A DNA stretch of 50,132 nucleotides from a virus, in IMG/VR virus record IMGVR_UViG_3300044838_000066, positions 1-50,132 of that record. One strand, given 5' to 3'. Of the stretch, positions 1,669 to 33,228 are shown in pieces (position 1 is the stretch's first letter; each line of letters starts with the position of its first letter). The translations under genes and the position numbers were made by a program. The notes beneath the pieces are model-generated. The model was not told where the DNA came from. It searched no databases and saw nothing but the letters and a program-made list of their open reading frames with translations.

Positions 1669-1923
1669 ATGGATACGCGCTTCGCGGCTCTCATCTCGCG
1701 CCTTTCGACCGGAAAGCTTGCCTTGGACGTTGGTGTAACACCAACCACGGTTTCAAAGTGGAAGGGCTCCCTTTGGTTGCCCCGTCCTCAGCATTACGAG
1801 AAGCTCGCCCAGGCGTGCAAGATGACCGTGGACGAGCTTGCCGCGGTTGTCTATGCGGATCATATCCGACGACCCCGCGCGCGTCGCGCCGCCAATCTCA
1901 CCTCACCCTCTAAGGAGTCCTAA
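1669..1923 (+). CDS. Cro/CI-like helix-turn-helix regulator
   Basis: An 84-residue protein (MDTRFAALISRL...). Residues about 16-50 form an HTH: LALDVGVTPTTVSKWKG is a typical XRE-family turn and recognition helix, followed by YEKLAQACKMTVDELAAVV, the usual closing helices. The C-terminus is basic. At this length it is a stand-alone DNA-binding domain with no CI-type cleavage or dimer domain, so Cro-like is likelier than a full repressor. It is divergent from the reverse operon and overlaps recT by one base (TAATG). An upstream in-frame ATG at 1642 is possible but less convincing. Confidence 0.8.
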   Translation: MDTRFAALISRLSTGKLALDVGVTPTTVSKWKGSLWLPRPQHYEKLAQACKMTVDELAAVVYADHIRRPRARRAANLTSPSKES

Positions 1924-3113
1924 TGAATAACACGTCCCTAGCGACCGTCAACACGGAAGCCCTGCCGTCTATTCCCAAGCCCGCAAGCTCCTCGCAATTC
2001 GTCTTTCAGCCGCAGAGTTACGCGGAATGGATGGAGCTTTGCAAGATGCTTTCGCAGTCGGATATTATCCCGAAGTCGCTTCAGGGCAAGCCCGGCAACG
2101 TCTATATCATCCTCCAAATGGGCACGCGCCTCGGTATCGACCCCGGATTCATGTTGCAAAACGTGTACGTCGTGAACGGGCGCCCGGCGATGTTCGGCGA
2201 TTTGCCGCTTTCAATCGTGCGCGCGAGCGGCCGGCTTGAGTGGATTAAAGAGGGATACCGCGGCGAGGAGAAGTCGGCGAAGGACATCGGCGAGGACTTT
2301 ACCGCGGTATGCGAAGTGAAGCGGTACGGGCAAGAACCGATCACGCAAACATTCTCCGTTGCCGATGCGCGCGAGGCGAACCTATGGGGCAACGCCGGGC
2401 CGTGGAAACAGTACTGGAAGCGCATGCTGAAGTTCCGTGCTCGCGGATTCGCACTACGGGATGTATTCGGAGATGTGCTTCAGGGCCTGGCGTGCGGCGA
2501 AGAGGAGCGGGATGCGGAACTAAAGACCGTAACAGAAACGCAGCCGAGCGTCGGCGGATCGCGCACGGAATCGCTGCTCGCGAAGATGCAAAGCGCGCAG
2601 CTCCCCGCAGGGAAGGTTGCCGCGCCGATCACGTTCGATCAGCGAGAGGCGGGCGAGGTTCTCGCTGAGACAATCAAAACGGCGGAAGCGATCGGCCTTG
2701 AGCCGTTGAGCTTGGACGTTAAGATCAAAGACGATCAGCCCGATCCCGAGGTCACGGTAAGCATGGTAACGACCCAGGCGAAGCGCAAGGGCCTCAACGA
2801 GGACGCCTTTCGCATACTCGTCCAAAACTCGACGGGAAGCACGAAGCTTACCAAAGCGAACATTGGAAAGGTTATCGATGCGATTAACGCGCTGCCGCTG
2901 CCGATGATCTCGGATGATGACCTCGAAAAATTTGGTCATAACGTGCCGCCGCCGGATCTGCGGATGCTCGCGGTCGCGGCGAACAAGTGCGGCATGGACC
3001 TGCGCGATGTCATGTCACTTATCGGCGAGCTTGCGTTATCGACCCCGTTGACGGCGGAATCGTACAAGATCGTGCTCGGCGAGATTGATGCTCGCGTGGC
3101 GGCGGCGGTGTAA
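1923..3113 (+). CDS. recT: RecT-family single-strand annealing recombinase
   Basis: A 396-residue protein. Residues about 35-190 match the RecT core: IPKSLQGKPGNVYIILQMG, then a segment with ITQTFSVADAREANLWG and GPWKQYWKRMLKFRARGFAL, the hallmark conserved block. It anneals complementary single strands and works with an exonuclease; the YqaJ-type nuclease at 3751 is the natural partner. The C-terminal 190 residues are a variable, charged tail, making it longer than many RecT proteins. Its start overlaps the regulator gene's stop. Confidence 0.93.
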   Translation: MNNTSLATVNTEALPSIPKPASSSQFVFQPQSYAEWMELCKMLSQSDIIPKSLQGKPGNVYIILQMGTRLGIDPGFMLQNVYVVNGRPAMFGDLPLSIVRASGRLEWIKEGYRGEEKSAKDIGEDFTAVCEVKRYGQEPITQTFSVADAREANLWGNAGPWKQYWKRMLKFRARGFALRDVFGDVLQGLACGEEERDAELKTVTETQPSVGGSRTESLLAKMQSAQLPAGKVAAPITFDQREAGEVLAETIKTAEAIGLEPLSLDVKIKDDQPDPEVTVSMVTTQAKRKGLNEDAFRILVQNSTGSTKLTKANIGKVIDAINALPLPMISDDDLEKFGHNVPPPDLRMLAVAANKCGMDLRDVMSLIGELALSTPLTAESYKIVLGEIDARVAAAV

Positions 3114-3750: not shown

Positions 3751-4698
3751 GTGGTGAATACTGAAGAACGCGCTGCGTTTCTGGAAAGAAGAAAGAAGGG
3801 AATTGGCGGAAGCGATGCTGCTGCCGTAATCGGTTTTAGTCCCTACCGTACAGCGCTGGACGTGTACCTCGAAAAGCGCGGGGAGATTGAACCGGATGAC
3901 CTCTCTGATAACCTCGCGGTGCAATGCGGCATAGAACTTGAGGATTTCGTCGCGCGTAAATATGCGACGGAGACGGGCAACGCGGTCGAGCGCGTACCTG
4001 AGACGCTCGTTCATCCGGTGCATGGATTCATGCTCGCGAATCTCGATGGGCGCGTTATAGGGAAACCGCGCGGCGTGGAATGTAAAACCGCGTCGCCCAT
4101 TCAGGCGAAAAACTCTGACCTTTGGGGCCGCGCGGGGACTGACGAAATTCCGCAACAGTATCTGTGTCAGGTACAGCATTATCTTGGCGTTACGAATCTT
4201 GAGGCGTTCGACGTTCCTGTTCTTTTCTTAGGCGCAGAATTCCGCATTTATACCGTGCATCGAAATCAGGCATTTATCGACGCGCTTATCGACGCGGAGG
4301 CCGCATTTTGGAACGGCGTAGTAAACGGCATCCCGCCGAACGCGCAAACGATTGCCGACACACGGCGCAAGTTTCCTAGTCATGTCGCAAAGACGAAAGT
4401 TGAAGCGGATGAGTACACGCGCGAACTCGTCGAAGAGTACTTGTCCCTTGACGAGCAAATCAAGGCGTTGCGCGAAGTAGAGGAGCGTAAGGAGAACATT
4501 GCGGCCAAGATCGGCGACTTCATGGGAACCAATGAGGTGTTGACTATCGGCGGCGTGGATCGTCTTTCGTTCAAGGGACAAAGCACCGGGAAGCGTTTGC
4601 CGTCGTCCTTCAAGAACGCGGAGCCGGATATCTTCGCCAAGTACGCGGTCGAAGGACAGACGCGCATTATGCGGATATTGAAAGAGAAGAAGTCGTGA
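3751..4698 (+). CDS. YqaJ / lambda-exonuclease-type nuclease
   Basis: A 315-residue protein from a GTG; a second GTG follows directly, and the nearby ATG at 3749 is out of frame. N-terminal KGIGGSDAAAVIGFSPYRTA is the YqaJ signature. The PD-(D/E)xK-like core is visible as NLDGRVIG then GVECKTAS (E-x-K), followed by QQYLCQVQHYLGV. It would resect duplex ends 5'-3' to feed RecT. The C-terminal 90 residues contain a coiled coil. With recT it forms a complete Red-like pair. Confidence 0.9.
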   Translation: MVNTEERAAFLERRKKGIGGSDAAAVIGFSPYRTALDVYLEKRGEIEPDDLSDNLAVQCGIELEDFVARKYATETGNAVERVPETLVHPVHGFMLANLDGRVIGKPRGVECKTASPIQAKNSDLWGRAGTDEIPQQYLCQVQHYLGVTNLEAFDVPVLFLGAEFRIYTVHRNQAFIDALIDAEAAFWNGVVNGIPPNAQTIADTRRKFPSHVAKTKVEADEYTRELVEEYLSLDEQIKALREVEERKENIAAKIGDFMGTNEVLTIGGVDRLSFKGQSTGKRLPSSFKNAEPDIFAKYAVEGQTRIMRILKEKKS

Positions 4699-5884: not shown

Positions 5885-5979
5885 TATCGCGCGGCGTAGT
5901 TGCTATCGGCATGGCGCATCGTATTTGCAACGTGCCCGCGAACATCCTTGCGGGGAGTTTTTACGACGACGGGGGAAAC

Positions 5980-6009
5980 AAAAAAGCGACGCTCCCACGT
6001 CGCTTTTTT
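5980..6009. terminator. Bidirectional terminator hairpin
   Basis: AAAAAAGCGACG and CGTCGCTTTTTT form a perfect 12-bp stem around the loop CTCCCA, with an A-run before and a T-run after, so it can end transcription in both directions. It lies upstream of the RHH gene on one side and of the replication operon on the other, insulating the two. Bases 5885-5979 hold no gene I can support. Confidence 0.8.
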
Positions 6010-6037
6010 ACATACAGCCTTGCCAAAGGACCTGCAC

Positions 6038-6172
6038 ATGATCGCCCCCCAAATCACGAAAGGCTCTCGCGTGAAAGATACCACGCCGCCAAAACACACC
6101 CCTACTTCCTCGGTTGTTGACCTTTCTTCGGCGGTTGAACGTATTGCCCGCCAAGGCGACGTTTTTGCATGA
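6038..6172 (+). CDS. Small protein heading the replication operon (44 aa)
   Basis: A 44-residue product starting MIAPQITKGSRVKDTTPPK, with AAAGGA about 9 bases before the ATG and a 4-base ATGA overlap with the next gene. The N-terminus is basic and Pro/Thr-rich; the end is a short amphipathic helix (DLSSAVERIARQG). No family recognised. It follows the terminator at 5980-6009, so a promoter should lie in the 28 bases between. Confidence 0.55.
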   Translation: MIAPQITKGSRVKDTTPPKHTPTSSVVDLSSAVERIARQGDVFA

Positions 6173-6663
6173 AATTCAAGGGCGACATACGCGAGCTTCT
6201 CATCGGCTCATGGAAGACGATTGAACGCGCAGGGGGCAAGCCGACGATCAATGCCGTGATTCGCGCTGCCCGCGAATGCTACGGAGCTACTTTCCGCACA
6301 ATGGAAGGATTCTCCATCCTAAAACCATTTGCTGAAAAAGCGCAGTCAGGAACAACTTTTCCCGCACGCGGGAACAACATTGACGCTAATACTAAGCAAT
6401 ACGGAACAACTCGGGAACAGAACGGGAACAAAACAGGAACAACTTTTCCCGCACGCGGGAACAACTCGGGAACAACCACGGAACAACATGGGAACAGCAA
6501 CGTGCGCGCGTTACGTCCTAGTCCTATTCCTTATCCTAAATATCCTAACGCGCGTACGCGCGAAAGCAAACAAGCCCAAGGTAGGACGCCAGAGGAAGAA
6601 GAAGCCGTAAGGCGTGCGATTGAACGAGCAGCGGAACAGACACGACGCAGCGAGGAGCTGTGA
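6169..6663 (+). CDS. Putative replication initiator carrying intragenic iterons
   Basis: A 164-residue protein. Residues 1-60 look like a compact helical domain (IRELLIGSWKTIERAGGK, AVIRAARECYG). Residues 60-115 are low complexity and twice repeat GTTFPARGNN, because the DNA beneath is an iteron array (6349-6497). The C-terminal 35 residues are a highly charged helix (PEEEEAVRRAIERAAEQ). Its place directly before a DnaC-like loader, and iterons inside the gene as in lambda O, suggest an origin-binding initiator. No named initiator domain was recognised, so the call rests on context. Confidence 0.55.
   Translation: MKFKGDIRELLIGSWKTIERAGGKPTINAVIRAARECYGATFRTMEGFSILKPFAEKAQSGTTFPARGNNIDANTKQYGTTREQNGNKTGTTFPARGNNSGTTTEQHGNSNVRALRPSPIPYPKYPNARTRESKQAQGRTPEEEEAVRRAIERAAEQTRRSEEL
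6349..6497. repeat. 11-bp-phased iteron array, candidate replication origin
   Basis: GGAACA(A/G) starts at 6349, 6371, 6403, 6414, 6425, 6436, 6458, 6469, 6480 and 6491. Spacings are 22, 32, 11, 11, 11, 22, 11, 11 and 11, so nearly all sites lie on one face of the helix. In both 22-bp gaps sits the dyad TTCCCGCACGCGGGAA (6359-6374 and 6446-6461), an inverted half-site. A 32-bp block is repeated exactly (6347-6378 and 6434-6465). Eleven is not a multiple of three, so coding cannot explain the phasing. Confidence 0.7.
6517..6547. other. Candidate unwinding stretch next to the iterons
   Basis: CCTA or CCTT recurs at 6517, 6523, 6529, 6535 and 6544 in an AT-richer, strand-asymmetric run 20 bases beyond the iterons. 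Lambda-type origins place an easily melted tract in this position. This is inference from layout. Confidence 0.35.
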
Positions 6664-6664
6664 G

Positions 6665-7429
6665 ATGAAGCCGATTGATACGTCACTTCGCCTCTTTCAC
6701 GACGAGCTAATGCGGATGCGCGATAACCCGGAAGTGCAAAGGCGCGTACGAGAAGTCGAAGAAGCGAACGCCCGACGAGACGCGGCTACGGCGCAAATGA
6801 AAATCGACCGCGTGAAAGCCCTGAGCATCATCGGCGAGCGATTCGAGGGACGCACGTTCGATAATTTTAAATCCTTGACCGGGAACGCATTAGCGCTCTT
6901 CGCTGCCAGGCAAGTCGCCGCGAATCCCAAGAAGGGCATCGTCCTTTACGGTCCCCCCGGCAACGGCAAGACGCATATCGTGGGCGCTATCGCTAATGAC
7001 TGCATCGCGCGCGGTATCCCGGCGATATGTAACACGGTCGGTAGGATTCTCTCCAAGGTGCGCGCCACGTATAACGACGGCGGAACGGAAACAGAATCGT
7101 CGTTCCTGGACAAGTGCGCGAATGTAAAAATGCTTATCCTCGACGACCTTGGGAAAGAGACGCTTACGCCGTGGAGTATGCGGTTTTTATGGGAGCTTAT
7201 CAATGCCAGGTATGAGCGCGAACTACCGATCATCGCCACTAGCAACGTCTCGCTCGAAAAGCTTACGCAACACTATCTCGCACCGATCCCCGGCATTGAC
7301 GCGCATATCCCGCTTTCCATGATCGACCGCTTGGAGGAAATGTGGGGGGAGTGGATTCCGGTACGCGGGGAATCCCGCCGCAAGCGAACCAAGAAAGTGG
7401 AAGAGATTCCTTGGCCGACGAGCCGTTAG
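6665..7429 (+). CDS. DnaC/IstB-like AAA+ helicase loader
   Basis: A 254-residue protein starting MKPIDTSLRLFHDEL; GGAG precedes this ATG, and an earlier in-frame ATG lies inside the previous gene. Residues about 95-103 are Walker A (GPPGNGKTH) and about 155-163 Walker B (MLILDDLGKE), followed by sensor-like ATSNVSLEKL. The N-terminal 60 residues are charged and helical, as in DnaC-type loaders. It would load a host replicative helicase, since no phage helicase of that class is visible. It sits directly behind the iteron-bearing gene. Confidence 0.88.
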   Translation: MKPIDTSLRLFHDELMRMRDNPEVQRRVREVEEANARRDAATAQMKIDRVKALSIIGERFEGRTFDNFKSLTGNALALFAARQVAANPKKGIVLYGPPGNGKTHIVGAIANDCIARGIPAICNTVGRILSKVRATYNDGGTETESSFLDKCANVKMLILDDLGKETLTPWSMRFLWELINARYERELPIIATSNVSLEKLTQHYLAPIPGIDAHIPLSMIDRLEEMWGEWIPVRGESRRKRTKKVEEIPWPTSR

Positions 7430-8952: not shown

Positions 8953-9041
8953 GCGGCGAGCTGAATATGCAAGCGACGGAACTACGAAATAAAGCGATCG
9001 CGCTTCTTGCCGTCGCCGCGCAACTGGAGGCGCTTATATGA
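8949..9041 (+). CDS. Microprotein (30 aa) coupled on both sides
   Basis: GTG-started, MSGELNMQATELRNKAIALL, ending LEALI: a single amphipathic helix. It overlaps the previous gene by 4 bases (GTGA) and the next by 4 (ATGA). Such coupling supports translation, but the length alone proves little. Confidence 0.45.
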   Translation: MSGELNMQATELRNKAIALLAVAAQLEALI

Positions 9042-9775
9042 TCGCATACCACGGAAAACAAGAAACCAAAGACGCTGTACTCTTGCAACTGCAAGGGCAT
9101 TACGACGCGGATCAAATTATCAAGGGAACGTATTGGGAGCGCGGTAAGGGCTGCGCCGTCGGATGCACAATTCACTCATGCGAGCATGTGCAGTACGAGT
9201 CGCTTTTCGGCATTCCGCAATCCTTAGCGCGCTTGGAAGACCGCATCTTTGAGGGCCTTCCGAACGAGAAGGCCAAGGAATGGCCGCTGCGTTTCATGCG
9301 CGCGATCAAGCCCGGTTCGGACCTCTCGCTCGTGCAGTGGCAATTCCTCCGCTGGCTTATGACCGACGCCGAGGTGAATCCCGGTATCAATCACCCGCTC
9401 GTCAAAGATGTCGTGTCCAGCGTCGCAACTCTCCTCGCCGCATGGATCAAGGGTGATCCGATTGATGCGAGGTCGGCGAGGTCGACGGAGTCGGCGGAGT
9501 CGGCGGCGAGGTCGGCGAGGTCGGCGGCGGAGTCGGCGGCGTGGTCGGCGTGGTCGGCGGCGGCGGAGTCGGCGGCGAGGTCGGCGGAGTCGGCGGCGGA
9601 GTCGGCGGCGTGGTCGGCGAGGTCGGCGGCGGAGTCGGCGGAGTCGGCGGCGAGGTCGGCGAGGTCGGCGGCGGAGTCGGCGGCGGAGTCGGCGGCGTGG
9701 TCGGCGAGGTCGGCGGCGGAGTCGGCGTACGAACGCATGGCCGACAAGCTTGTGGCGTTACTGGAGGCGGCGTGA
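9038..9775 (+). CDS. Phage protein with ([E/R/W]-Ser-Ala-(Ala))n repeat
   Basis: A 245-residue protein. Residues 1-140 form a globular domain I know from many phage genomes, uncharacterised: MIAYHGKQETKDAVLLQLQ, GTYWERGKGCAVGCTIHS, EYESLFGIPQ-type segment and AKEWPLRFMRAI. Residues about 142-230 are units of ESA, RSA or WSA with an optional extra Ala, and the end (YERMADKLVALLEAA) caps them. Relatives carry similar tails of different length. The repeat should be helical with a large residue (Glu, Arg or Trp) every 3-4 positions. Function unknown. Confidence 0.85.
   Translation: MIAYHGKQETKDAVLLQLQGHYDADQIIKGTYWERGKGCAVGCTIHSCEHVQYESLFGIPQSLARLEDRIFEGLPNEKAKEWPLRFMRAIKPGSDLSLVQWQFLRWLMTDAEVNPGINHPLVKDVVSSVATLLAAWIKGDPIDARSARSTESAESAARSARSAAESAAWSAWSAAAESAARSAESAAESAAWSARSAAESAESAARSARSAAESAAESAAWSARSAAESAYERMADKLVALLEAA
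9466..9729. repeat. GCG/TCG/[GAG, AGG, TGG] codon microsatellite
   Basis: The array uses only TCG, GCG and one variable codon, GAG, AGG or TGG (Glu, Arg, Trp), in units of 9 or 12 bases; one TCG-ACG occurs near the start. Third bases are all G. It encodes the Ser-Ala tail of the protein at 9038-9775. Length variation by slippage is expected. Confidence 0.9.
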
Positions 9776-14581: not shown

Positions 14582-15037
14582 ATGGAGGAGCCCAAACTAG
14601 CCCAAAAAGAACGAACCGCAAAGCAGCTTGAAAGGCAAGAAAAATGCTTTAATCTTTCTATTGAGCAGAGCAAATCAACCCGCGAAATTGCTCTCGCAAT
14701 GAAAATGTCAAAAACAACAGTTTCCGATGATATTCGTGCGGAACTTTTGCGTCGTCATACGGAGAATGCGAGTCGTCGCGAATATGAAACGACTCGTGCG
14801 GTTGCATTTTATGAACGAATGATTGCTCTTGCATTAACATTTGAACCAGATGGAGAGAATGAAGAGATTGATAAGGAAGACCGCATCAAGCGTATTCCTG
14901 ATAAGTCAATAAATACTGCGATCAAGGCGCGCGAACGAATTGATAAACTTTTTGGACTAGAAGGACCAGATAATGCGCAACAGCTTATGAAAATCATCGT
15001 CGAGAATGCTATACGTGAGCGCGAATGCCAACAATAA
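14582..15037 (+). CDS. terS: Terminase small subunit
   Basis: A 151-residue protein. Residues 15-60 have an HTH (SKSTREIALAMKMSKTTVSDDI). A coiled/oligomer region (YETTRAVAFYERMIALALTF) and an acidic linker follow. Small terminases recognise the packaging site as rings. It overlaps terL by 13 bases. Its codons are AT-richer than those of neighbouring genes, a hint of separate ancestry. Confidence 0.8.
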   Translation: MEEPKLAQKERTAKQLERQEKCFNLSIEQSKSTREIALAMKMSKTTVSDDIRAELLRRHTENASRREYETTRAVAFYERMIALALTFEPDGENEEIDKEDRIKRIPDKSINTAIKARERIDKLFGLEGPDNAQQLMKIIVENAIRERECQQ

Positions 15038-30446: not shown

Positions 30447-31499
30447 ATGTCGCTGCTTCTGCTTTTTAATTCTGGCATTGCCGCTATCAGCGGAACAGCC
30501 GCGACGCGCCAAGATGACCAGCGCGTGGCGGCTTCCGGGAGCGAGATATTTTCCGCTAGTGCGGCAACGCGCCAGGATGACCAAAGGGTATCGAGTGCTG
30601 GTGCGATTGGAGAGATAGGAACCGGCGCAACCTCTCAAGATCACCAAAGAATAGCAGCGAGCGGCGTCGAGACGTTCATAGGCAGCGCATCGACAATCCA
30701 AGATCATCAGCGCGTATCGACATCGGGAAGCGAAGTCTTTGTCGGCACTGGCGCGATGCGACAGGACGAACAGCGCGTATCCGGCATTGGTCACGAAGCG
30801 TTCACCGGCAGCGGCGCGAGCATACAAGCGGAGCAAGTCGTTTCGGCTCCTGGCGAGGTCGGAGAACAGGGTACGGCAGCGACGACGCAGGCGCCCCAGG
30901 TTATCTCCGCGAGCGCGCTACAGTCGTTCATCGCGGCGGGCGCAAGCGCCCAGGATGCGCAAACTGTCGCGGCGATCGGGATCGAGGCATTCGATGGGCT
31001 AGGCGCAAGCGTGCAAGTCCCGCAGGCAATATCGGGCATCGGCGACCTCATAGAGAGCGGCACGGCGACGATCGCACAGGATGCGCAGATCGTGACCGCA
31101 TCGGGCGTCATCGGCGAGCATGGCACCGCGAACGCCGCCCAGGACGATCAGACGGTCTCCGCAACCGGCACCATGCAACCGCTTGGACTTGGCCGCGCGA
31201 TCAATATAGATGCGGGCGGCTTCGATATGATGGGTTGCACTGCGACGCTCATCGCCGCCCCCGGCCCCTTCGACGCGCAAGGCGAACCGATACGCTTGAC
31301 GCCCGTGGGTATCTTCAATAGCGGCCTTACTGCCGTCTATCGCGAGGTCGCCGACGAATTCGCGATCGGCGGAGAATGGTCGCTCCAACTTGAAGCTTTG
31401 ACCGCGACCGGCGATATGTACACCTCAGCGCCCGGCCAGGTCTTTTTTCCGAGAATTCTGGAAACTCAAGAAGAACTTGAAGGAGCACTAAGTGGCTAA
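30447..31499 (+). CDS. Eleven-repeat QDxQ protein with C-terminal BppU-like domain
   Basis: A 350-residue protein. After a hydrophobic start (MSLLLLFNSGIAAISG), residues about 16-246 are eleven consecutive 21-residue units, consensus GTAATxQDDQRVxASGxExFx. Invariant or near-invariant positions are the first Gln, the second Gln, the hydrophobic after it and a Gly. A 95-residue C-terminal domain follows, homologous to 28013-28309. It is a likely virion stalk. The repeat is dispersed in four other proteins. Confidence 0.8.
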   Translation: MSLLLLFNSGIAAISGTAATRQDDQRVAASGSEIFSASAATRQDDQRVSSAGAIGEIGTGATSQDHQRIAASGVETFIGSASTIQDHQRVSTSGSEVFVGTGAMRQDEQRVSGIGHEAFTGSGASIQAEQVVSAPGEVGEQGTAATTQAPQVISASALQSFIAAGASAQDAQTVAAIGIEAFDGLGASVQVPQAISGIGDLIESGTATIAQDAQIVTASGVIGEHGTANAAQDDQTVSATGTMQPLGLGRAINIDAGGFDMMGCTATLIAAPGPFDAQGEPIRLTPVGIFNSGLTAVYREVADEFAIGGEWSLQLEALTATGDMYTSAPGQVFFPRILETQEELEGALSG

Positions 31500-31896
31500 T
31501 ATCATTAACTTGTCCGACCTGGCGGCAAACACCGAGGCGAACGCCTTTGCGCCGCTCTTGAACGCGGGCCTCATTGAGATTTTCACCGGCACGCAGCCTG
31601 CGAACGCGAACACGGCACTTAGCGGCAATACGTTGCTTGCTACCTTGACCTTCGCGAATCCGGCATTTGCGACGGCCGTCGCTAGTGTTATCACGGCGAA
31701 TGCGATCGCGAGCGGAACGGCAGTAGCGACGGGCACGGCGACATTCGCGCGCCTGTACAAGAGCGACGGAACGACGGTCGTAGGTGATATAGCGGTCGGT
31801 ACGAGCGGTGCGGGCCTCAATCTCAATACGACGAGCATTGTCACGGGCGGATTAGTGTCGGTCACAAGTTACACCCATACGGTTACGGAGACTTAG
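31492..31896 (+). CDS. Phage virion protein, fibre accessory type (134 aa)
   Basis: GTG start overlapping the previous gene by 8 bases. Beta-rich, with LLNAGLIEIFTGTQPANANT, LLATLTFANPAF, ATFARLYKSDGTTVVGDI and a Thr/Ser-rich end. It resembles small conserved proteins of fibre clusters. Role unknown. Confidence 0.65.
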   Translation: MANIINLSDLAANTEANAFAPLLNAGLIEIFTGTQPANANTALSGNTLLATLTFANPAFATAVASVITANAIASGTAVATGTATFARLYKSDGTTVVGDIAVGTSGAGLNLNTTSIVTGGLVSVTSYTHTVTET

Positions 31897-31950
31897 TAGG
31901 TAGTATAGCGAGCGGTATTTATTCTCCATAAGCGCTAGAGGCGGGGAGCT

Positions 31951-33228
31951 ATGAGCATTCAAGCCGAGCAAGCCGTCTCAGGCGTCGGCGTCGTTGAGGC
32001 GCGTGGTACGGGCGCGTCGACACAGGCGGAGCAAACGGTTCTGAGTGCTGGCGGTGAGCCTTACGGGGCGACGCGCCAGGACGATCAGCGCGTATCGGCA
32101 AGCGGCACTACAGGTCAGACGGGCACCGGCGACACGGCGCAGGCTCCGCAGACGGCCGGCAGCGTCGCCGCGGTCGGCGTTAGTGGTACTGCCGCGATCG
32201 CGCAGGACGATCAGCGTCTTTCCGCGTCCGGCGTAACGACATCGGCAGGCACGGTTCAGCGATCCCAGGCCGTCGCCGGCGTTGGCTTCGTAAGCTCATC
32301 CTCATCGGCGCAAGGCGCGCAGACGGTCGCCGCATCGGGCACCTTCGAAACTGTCGGCGGCGTCGGCGCGACGACGCAGGGCGAGCAAATCGTCGTTGCG
32401 CGCGGATTCGAGACGTTCACCGGCACGGGATCATCGACGCAGGACGAGCAGCGTATTGCATCTTCCGGGCAACTGCTCATCAGCGGCAGCGCGGCAACCT
32501 CGCAGGACGCGCAGCATGTCGCCGCTGCCGGAATTGAAGCGTTTCGCGGGGTAGGCGCAAGCGCCCAGGCGGAGCAGACGGTATCGGCAACAGGGGCCGG
32601 CTATCGGTTCAATACCGGCCCCGCAGCGCCGGTTCAGGCACCCCAGGCCGTTACCGCCGCCGGGGTCTTCGTCGCGCCAAGCGGACCCGCGACTCCCGCG
32701 CAGGCACCGCAAGTAGCCAGTGGCACCGGCTCATTCACGATCAGGGGCACCGCCTCGCCGCGCCAGGATAGGCAGCGGGTATCGGCAAGGGCCGTCCAAA
32801 CGCTCCCAGGCGTCTCATCAATCGCGCAAACGCCCCAAACTACACGCGCCCTCGGCAACGTCGCCGGGCCTCCGGTAACGGGCACGGGAGCATCGTCGCA
32901 GGATGCTCAGACCGCATCGGGCAGCGGCAATCTGCGGTATGCGGCAGTGGGCGATTCCACGCAAGCCCCGCAAACCGCGATCGGCTCAGGCGCACTCACC
33001 ATAGTTGCACGTGGAACATCGACGCAGGCCCCGCAGACGGCTTCCGGGATCGGCCAAACCTTCGCGGGCGTCGGCGCTAGCTCCCAAGCGACGCAGACAG
33101 CGAAGGGCACCGGCAACATGGGCGAAGTCGTCTGCGTTCGCCTGCCGATCATGGCGATTACCCGAATCACGCTGCCGATTACACCGCCGCACGAATGCCC
33201 ACGCAATGTGACGTTATCGCGTGGCTAG
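31951..33228 (+). CDS. QDxQ/QAxQ repeat protein with about 19 units
   Basis: A 425-residue protein with GGGGAG before the ATG. It consists almost wholly of 18-24-residue units such as GTGASTQAEQTV and GSAATSQDAQHVAAAG, with more length variation than in 30447-31499. A short unique end (CVRLPIMAITRITLPI) has no repeat. The regular hydrophobic/Gln/Gly spacing suggests a beta-solenoid or extended fibre. A terminator follows. Confidence 0.8.
   Translation: MSIQAEQAVSGVGVVEARGTGASTQAEQTVLSAGGEPYGATRQDDQRVSASGTTGQTGTGDTAQAPQTAGSVAAVGVSGTAAIAQDDQRLSASGVTTSAGTVQRSQAVAGVGFVSSSSSAQGAQTVAASGTFETVGGVGATTQGEQIVVARGFETFTGTGSSTQDEQRIASSGQLLISGSAATSQDAQHVAAAGIEAFRGVGASAQAEQTVSATGAGYRFNTGPAAPVQAPQAVTAAGVFVAPSGPATPAQAPQVASGTGSFTIRGTASPRQDRQRVSARAVQTLPGVSSIAQTPQTTRALGNVAGPPVTGTGASSQDAQTASGSGNLRYAAVGDSTQAPQTAIGSGALTIVARGTSTQAPQTASGIGQTFAGVGASSQATQTAKGTGNMGEVVCVRLPIMAITRITLPITPPHECPRNVTLSRG

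Follow-up and report, generated by a model that had tools for sequence, protein, structure and literature searches.

Comparison with described intragenic origins

Two phage origins located within genes of the replication module offer the closest described parallels to the locus considered here. The origin of lambda lies inside gene O (PMC7466680), and oriL of SPP1 lies within gene 38, the helicase loader being encoded by gene 39 (PMC6316719). In lambda and its Stx-phage relatives, the iterons are found mid-gene and encode a low-complexity linker, and the helicase-loader gene comes next. The same arrangement is seen in the window, by which is meant the whole stretch of DNA analysed, a complete virus record of 50,132 bases (Table 1). 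However, lambda has four partly palindromic iterons of ~18 bp each (e.g. ATCCCTCAAAACGAGGGA) and a strong AT-rich tract, whereas in the window the sites are short GGAACA words, ten in number and phased at 11 bp, the AT-rich flank is weak, and sequence similarity to O-like families is lacking. In SPP1, direct repeats lie inside the initiator gene, which encodes the replisome organizer G38P, and the gene of the loader (gp39) follows; the putative initiator gene of the window shares both features. SPP1 differs in the protein itself. It also has an additional origin, oriR, and an AT-rich unwinding element, and no counterpart of either was found in the window.

The PHROG O-like and DnaD-like initiators of loci L010, L027, L028, L032, L033, L040 and L045, identified in the comparisons below, share with the window the word, the phase and the position of the array in the linker. 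In L010, L027, L028, L032 and L033, a DnaB- or DnaC-like gene is situated just downstream, as in the window. The N-terminal domains of these L010-type initiators match known initiation families, whereas that of the window protein, which is much shorter, does not. The layout is of a known kind, represented by lambda O and SPP1 gene 38; its novelty lies in the individual member, whose small N-terminal domain matches no family and whose word is found again in unrelated phages. Very likely, the array provides the binding sites of a phage replication origin that lies within its initiator's own gene, with the product of gene 6169–6663 (here the 6169 protein) binding and the loader being recruited.

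Table 1. Coordinates of the array, the genes around it and associated sequence features in the window
Feature	Position	Strand	Basis or remark
RecT-like annealing protein	1923–3113		Upstream of array; profile matches
YqaJ/RecE-type exonuclease	3751–4698		Upstream of array; profile matches
44-aa ORF overlapping start of proposed initiator gene	6038–6172	+	Sequence; coding score
Proposed replication initiator gene, 164 aa	6169–6663	+	ORF; coding statistics; AlphaFold2 model
32-bp exact repeat CAGGAACAACTTTTCCCGCACGCGGGAACAAC, copy 1	6347–6378	+	Sequence comparison within gene
Ten-iteron GGAACA(A) array	6349–6496	+	11/22-bp steps, one of 32
Dyad TTCCCGC-AC-GCGGGAA, copy 1	6359–6374	n/a	Occupies skipped 11-bp slot
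32-bp exact repeat, copy 2	6434–6465	+	87 bp further, in frame
Dyad TTCCCGC-AC-GCGGGAA, copy 2	6446–6461	n/a	Part of second 32-bp repeat
Four TCCTA (6516, 6522, 6534, 6543)	6516–6547	+	Mildly AT-rich; candidate melting stretch
Perfect 14-bp palindrome CGCGCGTACGCGCG	6549–6562	n/a	Follows TCCTA run
DnaC-like helicase loader (AAA+), next gene	6665–7429	+	PHROG 50, IstB_IS21, PRK08116
Large-terminase gene	at 15025		~8.5 kb from array

Structure of the array

Gene 6169–6663 contains ten GGAACA sites on the plus strand (6349, 6371, 6403, 6414, 6425, 6436, 6458, 6469, 6480 and 6491), at successive steps of 22, 32, 11, 11, 11, 22, 11, 11 and 11 bp. A position count and shuffles thus bear out the first-pass annotation, in which ten sites at steps of 11 or 22 bp, with one of 32, had been described within this gene. 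The final eight sites make up a chain of exact 11- or 22-bp steps, and chains in shuffles of the gene reach three at most. By chance, 18.7 copies of GGAACA would be expected on both strands of the whole 50-kb window, and ~0.03 on one strand of the 148-base array, as against the ten seen. The chain is the longest of its kind in the window, excepting a GAGCCG microsatellite at the left end.

Four of the hexamers lie in codon frame 0, four in frame 1 and two in frame 2, and depending on the frame they are translated as Gly-Thr, Gly-Asn or Glu-Gln. Since all three frames are used, it is the DNA word that has been kept rather than a peptide; the pattern is maintained at the DNA level, which agrees with the original proposal that the period serves DNA and not protein. 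Between copies GGAACA alone is constant, and the remaining five bases of the unit vary.

The two internal dyads reported at first are both present, each with arms of 7 bp and a spacer of 2 nt, and both belong to a single exact direct repeat of 32 bp. The copies of this repeat are 87 bp, or 29 codons, apart and hence in frame. Part of the array therefore arose by in-frame duplication, the dyad being included in the duplicated 32 bp. No occurrence of the core of the 32-bp repeat was found in a scan of viral contigs.

An AT-richer run had also been placed just beyond the array. It is present only in weak form, with 47% GC over 60 bp, which is the 16th percentile of the window, and a clear AT-rich unwinding stretch was not found at that position. 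The AT-richest stretch precedes the array (6300–6359, 35–38% GC). The palindrome beyond the TCCTA run is one of three perfect palindromes of at least 14 bp in the window. The order of iterons, AT-richer run and palindrome is similar to that in ori-lambda, a likeness that serves as a lead and not as a test. The cumulative GC-skew curve, suggested earlier as a check on the origin, is without a turning point near 6.4 kb and has its maximum at 16.4 kb, so that this signal is absent. By the consensus used, there is no DnaA box near the array.

Runs of CCTA-type hexamers follow arrays both in the window (6516–6547) and in the initiator gene of L028, where the run is of CCTAAT; these runs are translated as Pro-X repeats.

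The putative initiator gene and the helicase loader

The putative initiator gene is packed between its neighbours, overlapping the 44-aa ORF upstream by ATGA and ending 1 nt short of the start codon of the DnaC-like gene. Codon statistics for the N-terminal part of its product (60 aa) are positive in frame and negative in the other two frames, and the gene is real at least in this part. The coding score of the C-terminal part is poor. A single-sequence AlphaFold2 model comprises an N-terminal three-helix domain (aa 7–59) of moderate confidence, a middle region (aa ~61–140) whose disorder coincides with the array-coded stretch, and a C-terminal helix (aa 141–163) predicted with confidence.

The absence of recognizable O-like similarity, remarked upon in the first-pass annotation, is confirmed at the sequence level by profile searches. 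The 6169 protein has no sequence match to initiator profiles (O-like, DnaD-like, Phage_rep_O or replisome organizer), and no match above noise in PHROG, Pfam, NCBIfam or PDB sequences. A search of phages with the N-terminal 61 aa, and of plasmids with the whole protein, gave nothing but a tandem repeat. Among viral contigs, no close relatives of the 6169 protein, outside the array-coded stretch, or of the DnaC-like protein were found. Comparison of 5900–7429 with phages by blastn gave no match, and the best E value in a phmmer comparison of the 6169 protein with the 39 upstream genes described below was 0.14.

Matches of the N-terminal model to winged-helix domains are weak (Foldseek E values no better than 0.35, VIA Z scores no higher than 5.5). 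The best fold matches were the ribosomal P1/P2 stalk and the KAT6A/SAMD1 winged-helix domains; the ribosomal-stalk helices score as high as the winged-helix domains, and other unrelated helical folds were also matched. To judge from the model, an N-terminal winged-helix or helix–turn–helix (HTH) domain is plausible. The protein may possibly represent an unfamiliar initiator family, as first suggested, a reading that draws on absent matches and a low-confidence model.

The next gene had been described as a DnaC-like loader, and this holds for PHROG, Pfam-type and PRK08116 matches alike. A longer form of the gene, ORF 6614–7429, matches PHROG 50 (E 8.5e-48) and IstB_IS21 (E 2.7e-21), and the loader matches PRK08116 (E 8.6e-43).

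The proposed mechanism starts from what was observed here, namely the array, its phase, the use of three frames, the DnaC-like neighbour and a layout common to many unrelated phages. By analogy with lambda O and SPP1 gp38, binding by the 6169 protein would lead to melting, recruitment and the start of replication at the array. Several protomers would bind GGAACA side by side via the N-terminal helical domain and, because the sites are spaced one or two helical turns apart, would be brought onto one face of the DNA. The bound protein could wrap or strain the DNA, such that a nearby stretch melts (6516–6562, or 6300–6345). The C-terminal helix may then recruit the DnaC-like product of the next gene, and this loader would place the host DnaB helicase on the opened stretch.

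Comparison by gene position and by word

A starting set of 88 loci with DnaC-like relatives was drawn from 8 annotated phages and 80 viral contigs, and the genes upstream of the DnaC-like match were reduced to 39 at identity under 50%. Local repeats significant at p ≤0.01 against codon shuffles are present in the gene before the DnaC-like gene in 33 of these 39 non-redundant phage loci, counts that are rough, as upstream genes were chosen automatically and some repeats are low-complexity runs. In the control, DnaC-coding stretches of the same loci, significant repeats occur in 1/39. The best repeat shift is 10–12 bp in 13 and 20–24 bp in nine, so that spacings of one or two helical turns predominate. 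Annotated initiation genes adjoining DnaC genes carry repeats of other sequences spaced by 11 or 22 bp: AACGACCGTTN at 11-bp steps in L169, ACAGAGACTAC in L172 and CCCCTTCGGAAAAC at 20–23 in L168. From these sequence comparisons, intragenic repeats near the helical phase are the rule for the gene preceding a DnaC-like gene. As phages that have a DnaC-like gene generally show such a layout, the locus is less unusual than the first-pass annotation supposed. Phage origins might accordingly be located from sequence by a simple rule, that of seeking repeats at helical phase in the gene that immediately precedes a DnaC-like one, and an orphan phage here gains a concrete candidate origin and a putative initiator of 164 residues.

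When 2.9 million viral contigs were scanned for GGAACAA repeated three times at an exact phase of 11 bp, 47 contigs were found, with 25 distinct flanking-sequence contexts, some of them mutually related. As controls, a permuted heptamer at 11 bp was found in 8 contigs and GGAACAA at 13-bp phase in 1. Nine of the 25 arrays are inside genes matching PHROG replication-initiation, O-like or DnaD-like families, and five of these nine are followed directly by a gene with a match to DnaB- or DnaC-like families. The nine phage contigs appear to be otherwise unrelated. The early reading of the array as an origin with a lambda-O-like layout is thus supported by both phage comparisons, that by position (33/39 loci) and that by word (nine initiator-gene arrays). 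A literature search on the 11-bp word returned no phage-origin paper among its matches.

A broader interpretation, to which we attach a low probability, is that unrelated phages of different hosts may reuse GGAACAA at 11-bp phase as a recognition element, both in replication initiators and adjacent to genes for the terminase small subunit. One class of small DNA-binding domain would read it in all of them, and the 6169 protein would represent a new, minimal initiator family founded on this element. That GGAACAA by itself identifies an origin was rejected, since bacterial tandem repeats contain such arrays too, and others adjoin terminase small-subunit genes. Uniqueness of the 11-bp phase to GGAACAA was likewise rejected: arrays of the permuted control heptamer are present in two initiator-type genes (L057 and L059), and the phase is therefore more general than the word.

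Alternative explanations

The array could be an origin that is bound by another phage or host protein, the 6169 ORF being a remnant or a carrier. The product is short (164 aa, compared with about 250–320 aa in the annotated initiators examined), is without a family match and has a weak coding score in its C-terminal part. However, the first 60 aa look like coding sequence in the gene's own frame and in no other, little room separates the gene from those on either side, and in the compared phages the array-bearing gene is the annotated initiator, all of which makes a different binder unlikely. Neutral or selfish growth of an 11-bp tandem repeat in a tolerant linker, without origin function, would be in keeping with a unit that is stop-free in all frames, and with the GGAACAA 11-bp tandems found outside recognizable phage genes in Burkholderia stagnalis and a Verrucomicrobia bin. 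Fresh tandem expansion would not be expected to keep GGAACA alone while the other five bases vary, and the place of the array beside a DnaC-like gene fits the rule of 33/39 loci; this explanation is considered quite improbable.

A packaging (pac/cos) or transcription-control site is suggested by the GGAACAA arrays of L012 and L039, which immediately precede a gene for the terminase small subunit, and by that of L008, with which an ArpU-like gene ends, but is very improbable for an array that is inside the replication module and so distant from the large-terminase gene of the window (Table 1). The LexA consensus in alphaproteobacteria is GTTCN7GTTC / GAACN7GAAC (PMC3091678). The spacing in the window is exactly GAAC-N7-GAAC, the alphaproteobacterial 11-bp geometry, and the sites could on this basis be SOS boxes. 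Such a role is most improbable for ten sites in a row, deep inside a gene and away from its promoter; the same unit, moreover, forms arrays in many initiator genes and in phages whose hosts are Lactobacillus-like, and the host of the phage considered here is not known to be alphaproteobacterial. The reading of the array as the binding part of an origin is accordingly preferred.

Other occurrences of the word and other repeats in the window

Arrays of GGAACAA at 11 bp were also seen in other settings. In L012 (2084–2112) and L039 (197–225), both numbered with the array on the plus strand, they lie just before terminase small-subunit genes and are perhaps packaging-site repeats; L025, L029 and L049 are relatives. 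In L008 (558–586), a Lactobacillus-type prophage, the array is at the 3' end of a gene for an ArpU-like activator. L051, L001–L003 and L078 are Lactobacillus-type prophages with the 11-bp unit at the same end of an ArpU-like gene, and in L001–L003 the array extends past the stop codon. The arrays of L163, L165 and L144 lie in or at the end of genes that, on inspection by eye, resemble AlbA_2/Schlafen-like ATP-binding regulators.

The pattern of three GGAACAA at 11 bp also occurs in 105 stretches of bacterial genomes, of which many are simple tandem repeats. In one bin of Verrucomicrobia subdivision 3, such repeats are carried by L070, L082, L092, L105, L108, L109 and L126, that of L070, L082 and L092 being GGAACAATCGA. 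A further repeat of this kind, in L174 (Burkholderia stagnalis), has about ten tandem copies of GGAACAACGCG.

The window itself contains further repeats. The long GAGCCG-type microsatellite (59–514) is open on both strands, giving Ala-Gly or Ser-Gly-Asp repeats, and a gene at 9038–9775 has a long Ser-Ala-Ala-Glu/Arg-Ser-Ala repeat tail with a 27-bp unit. Two adjacent ORFs at 30447–33228 consist of ATRQDDQRVSASG / STQAPQTVSA-like repeats, perhaps those of a tail fibre or adhesin.
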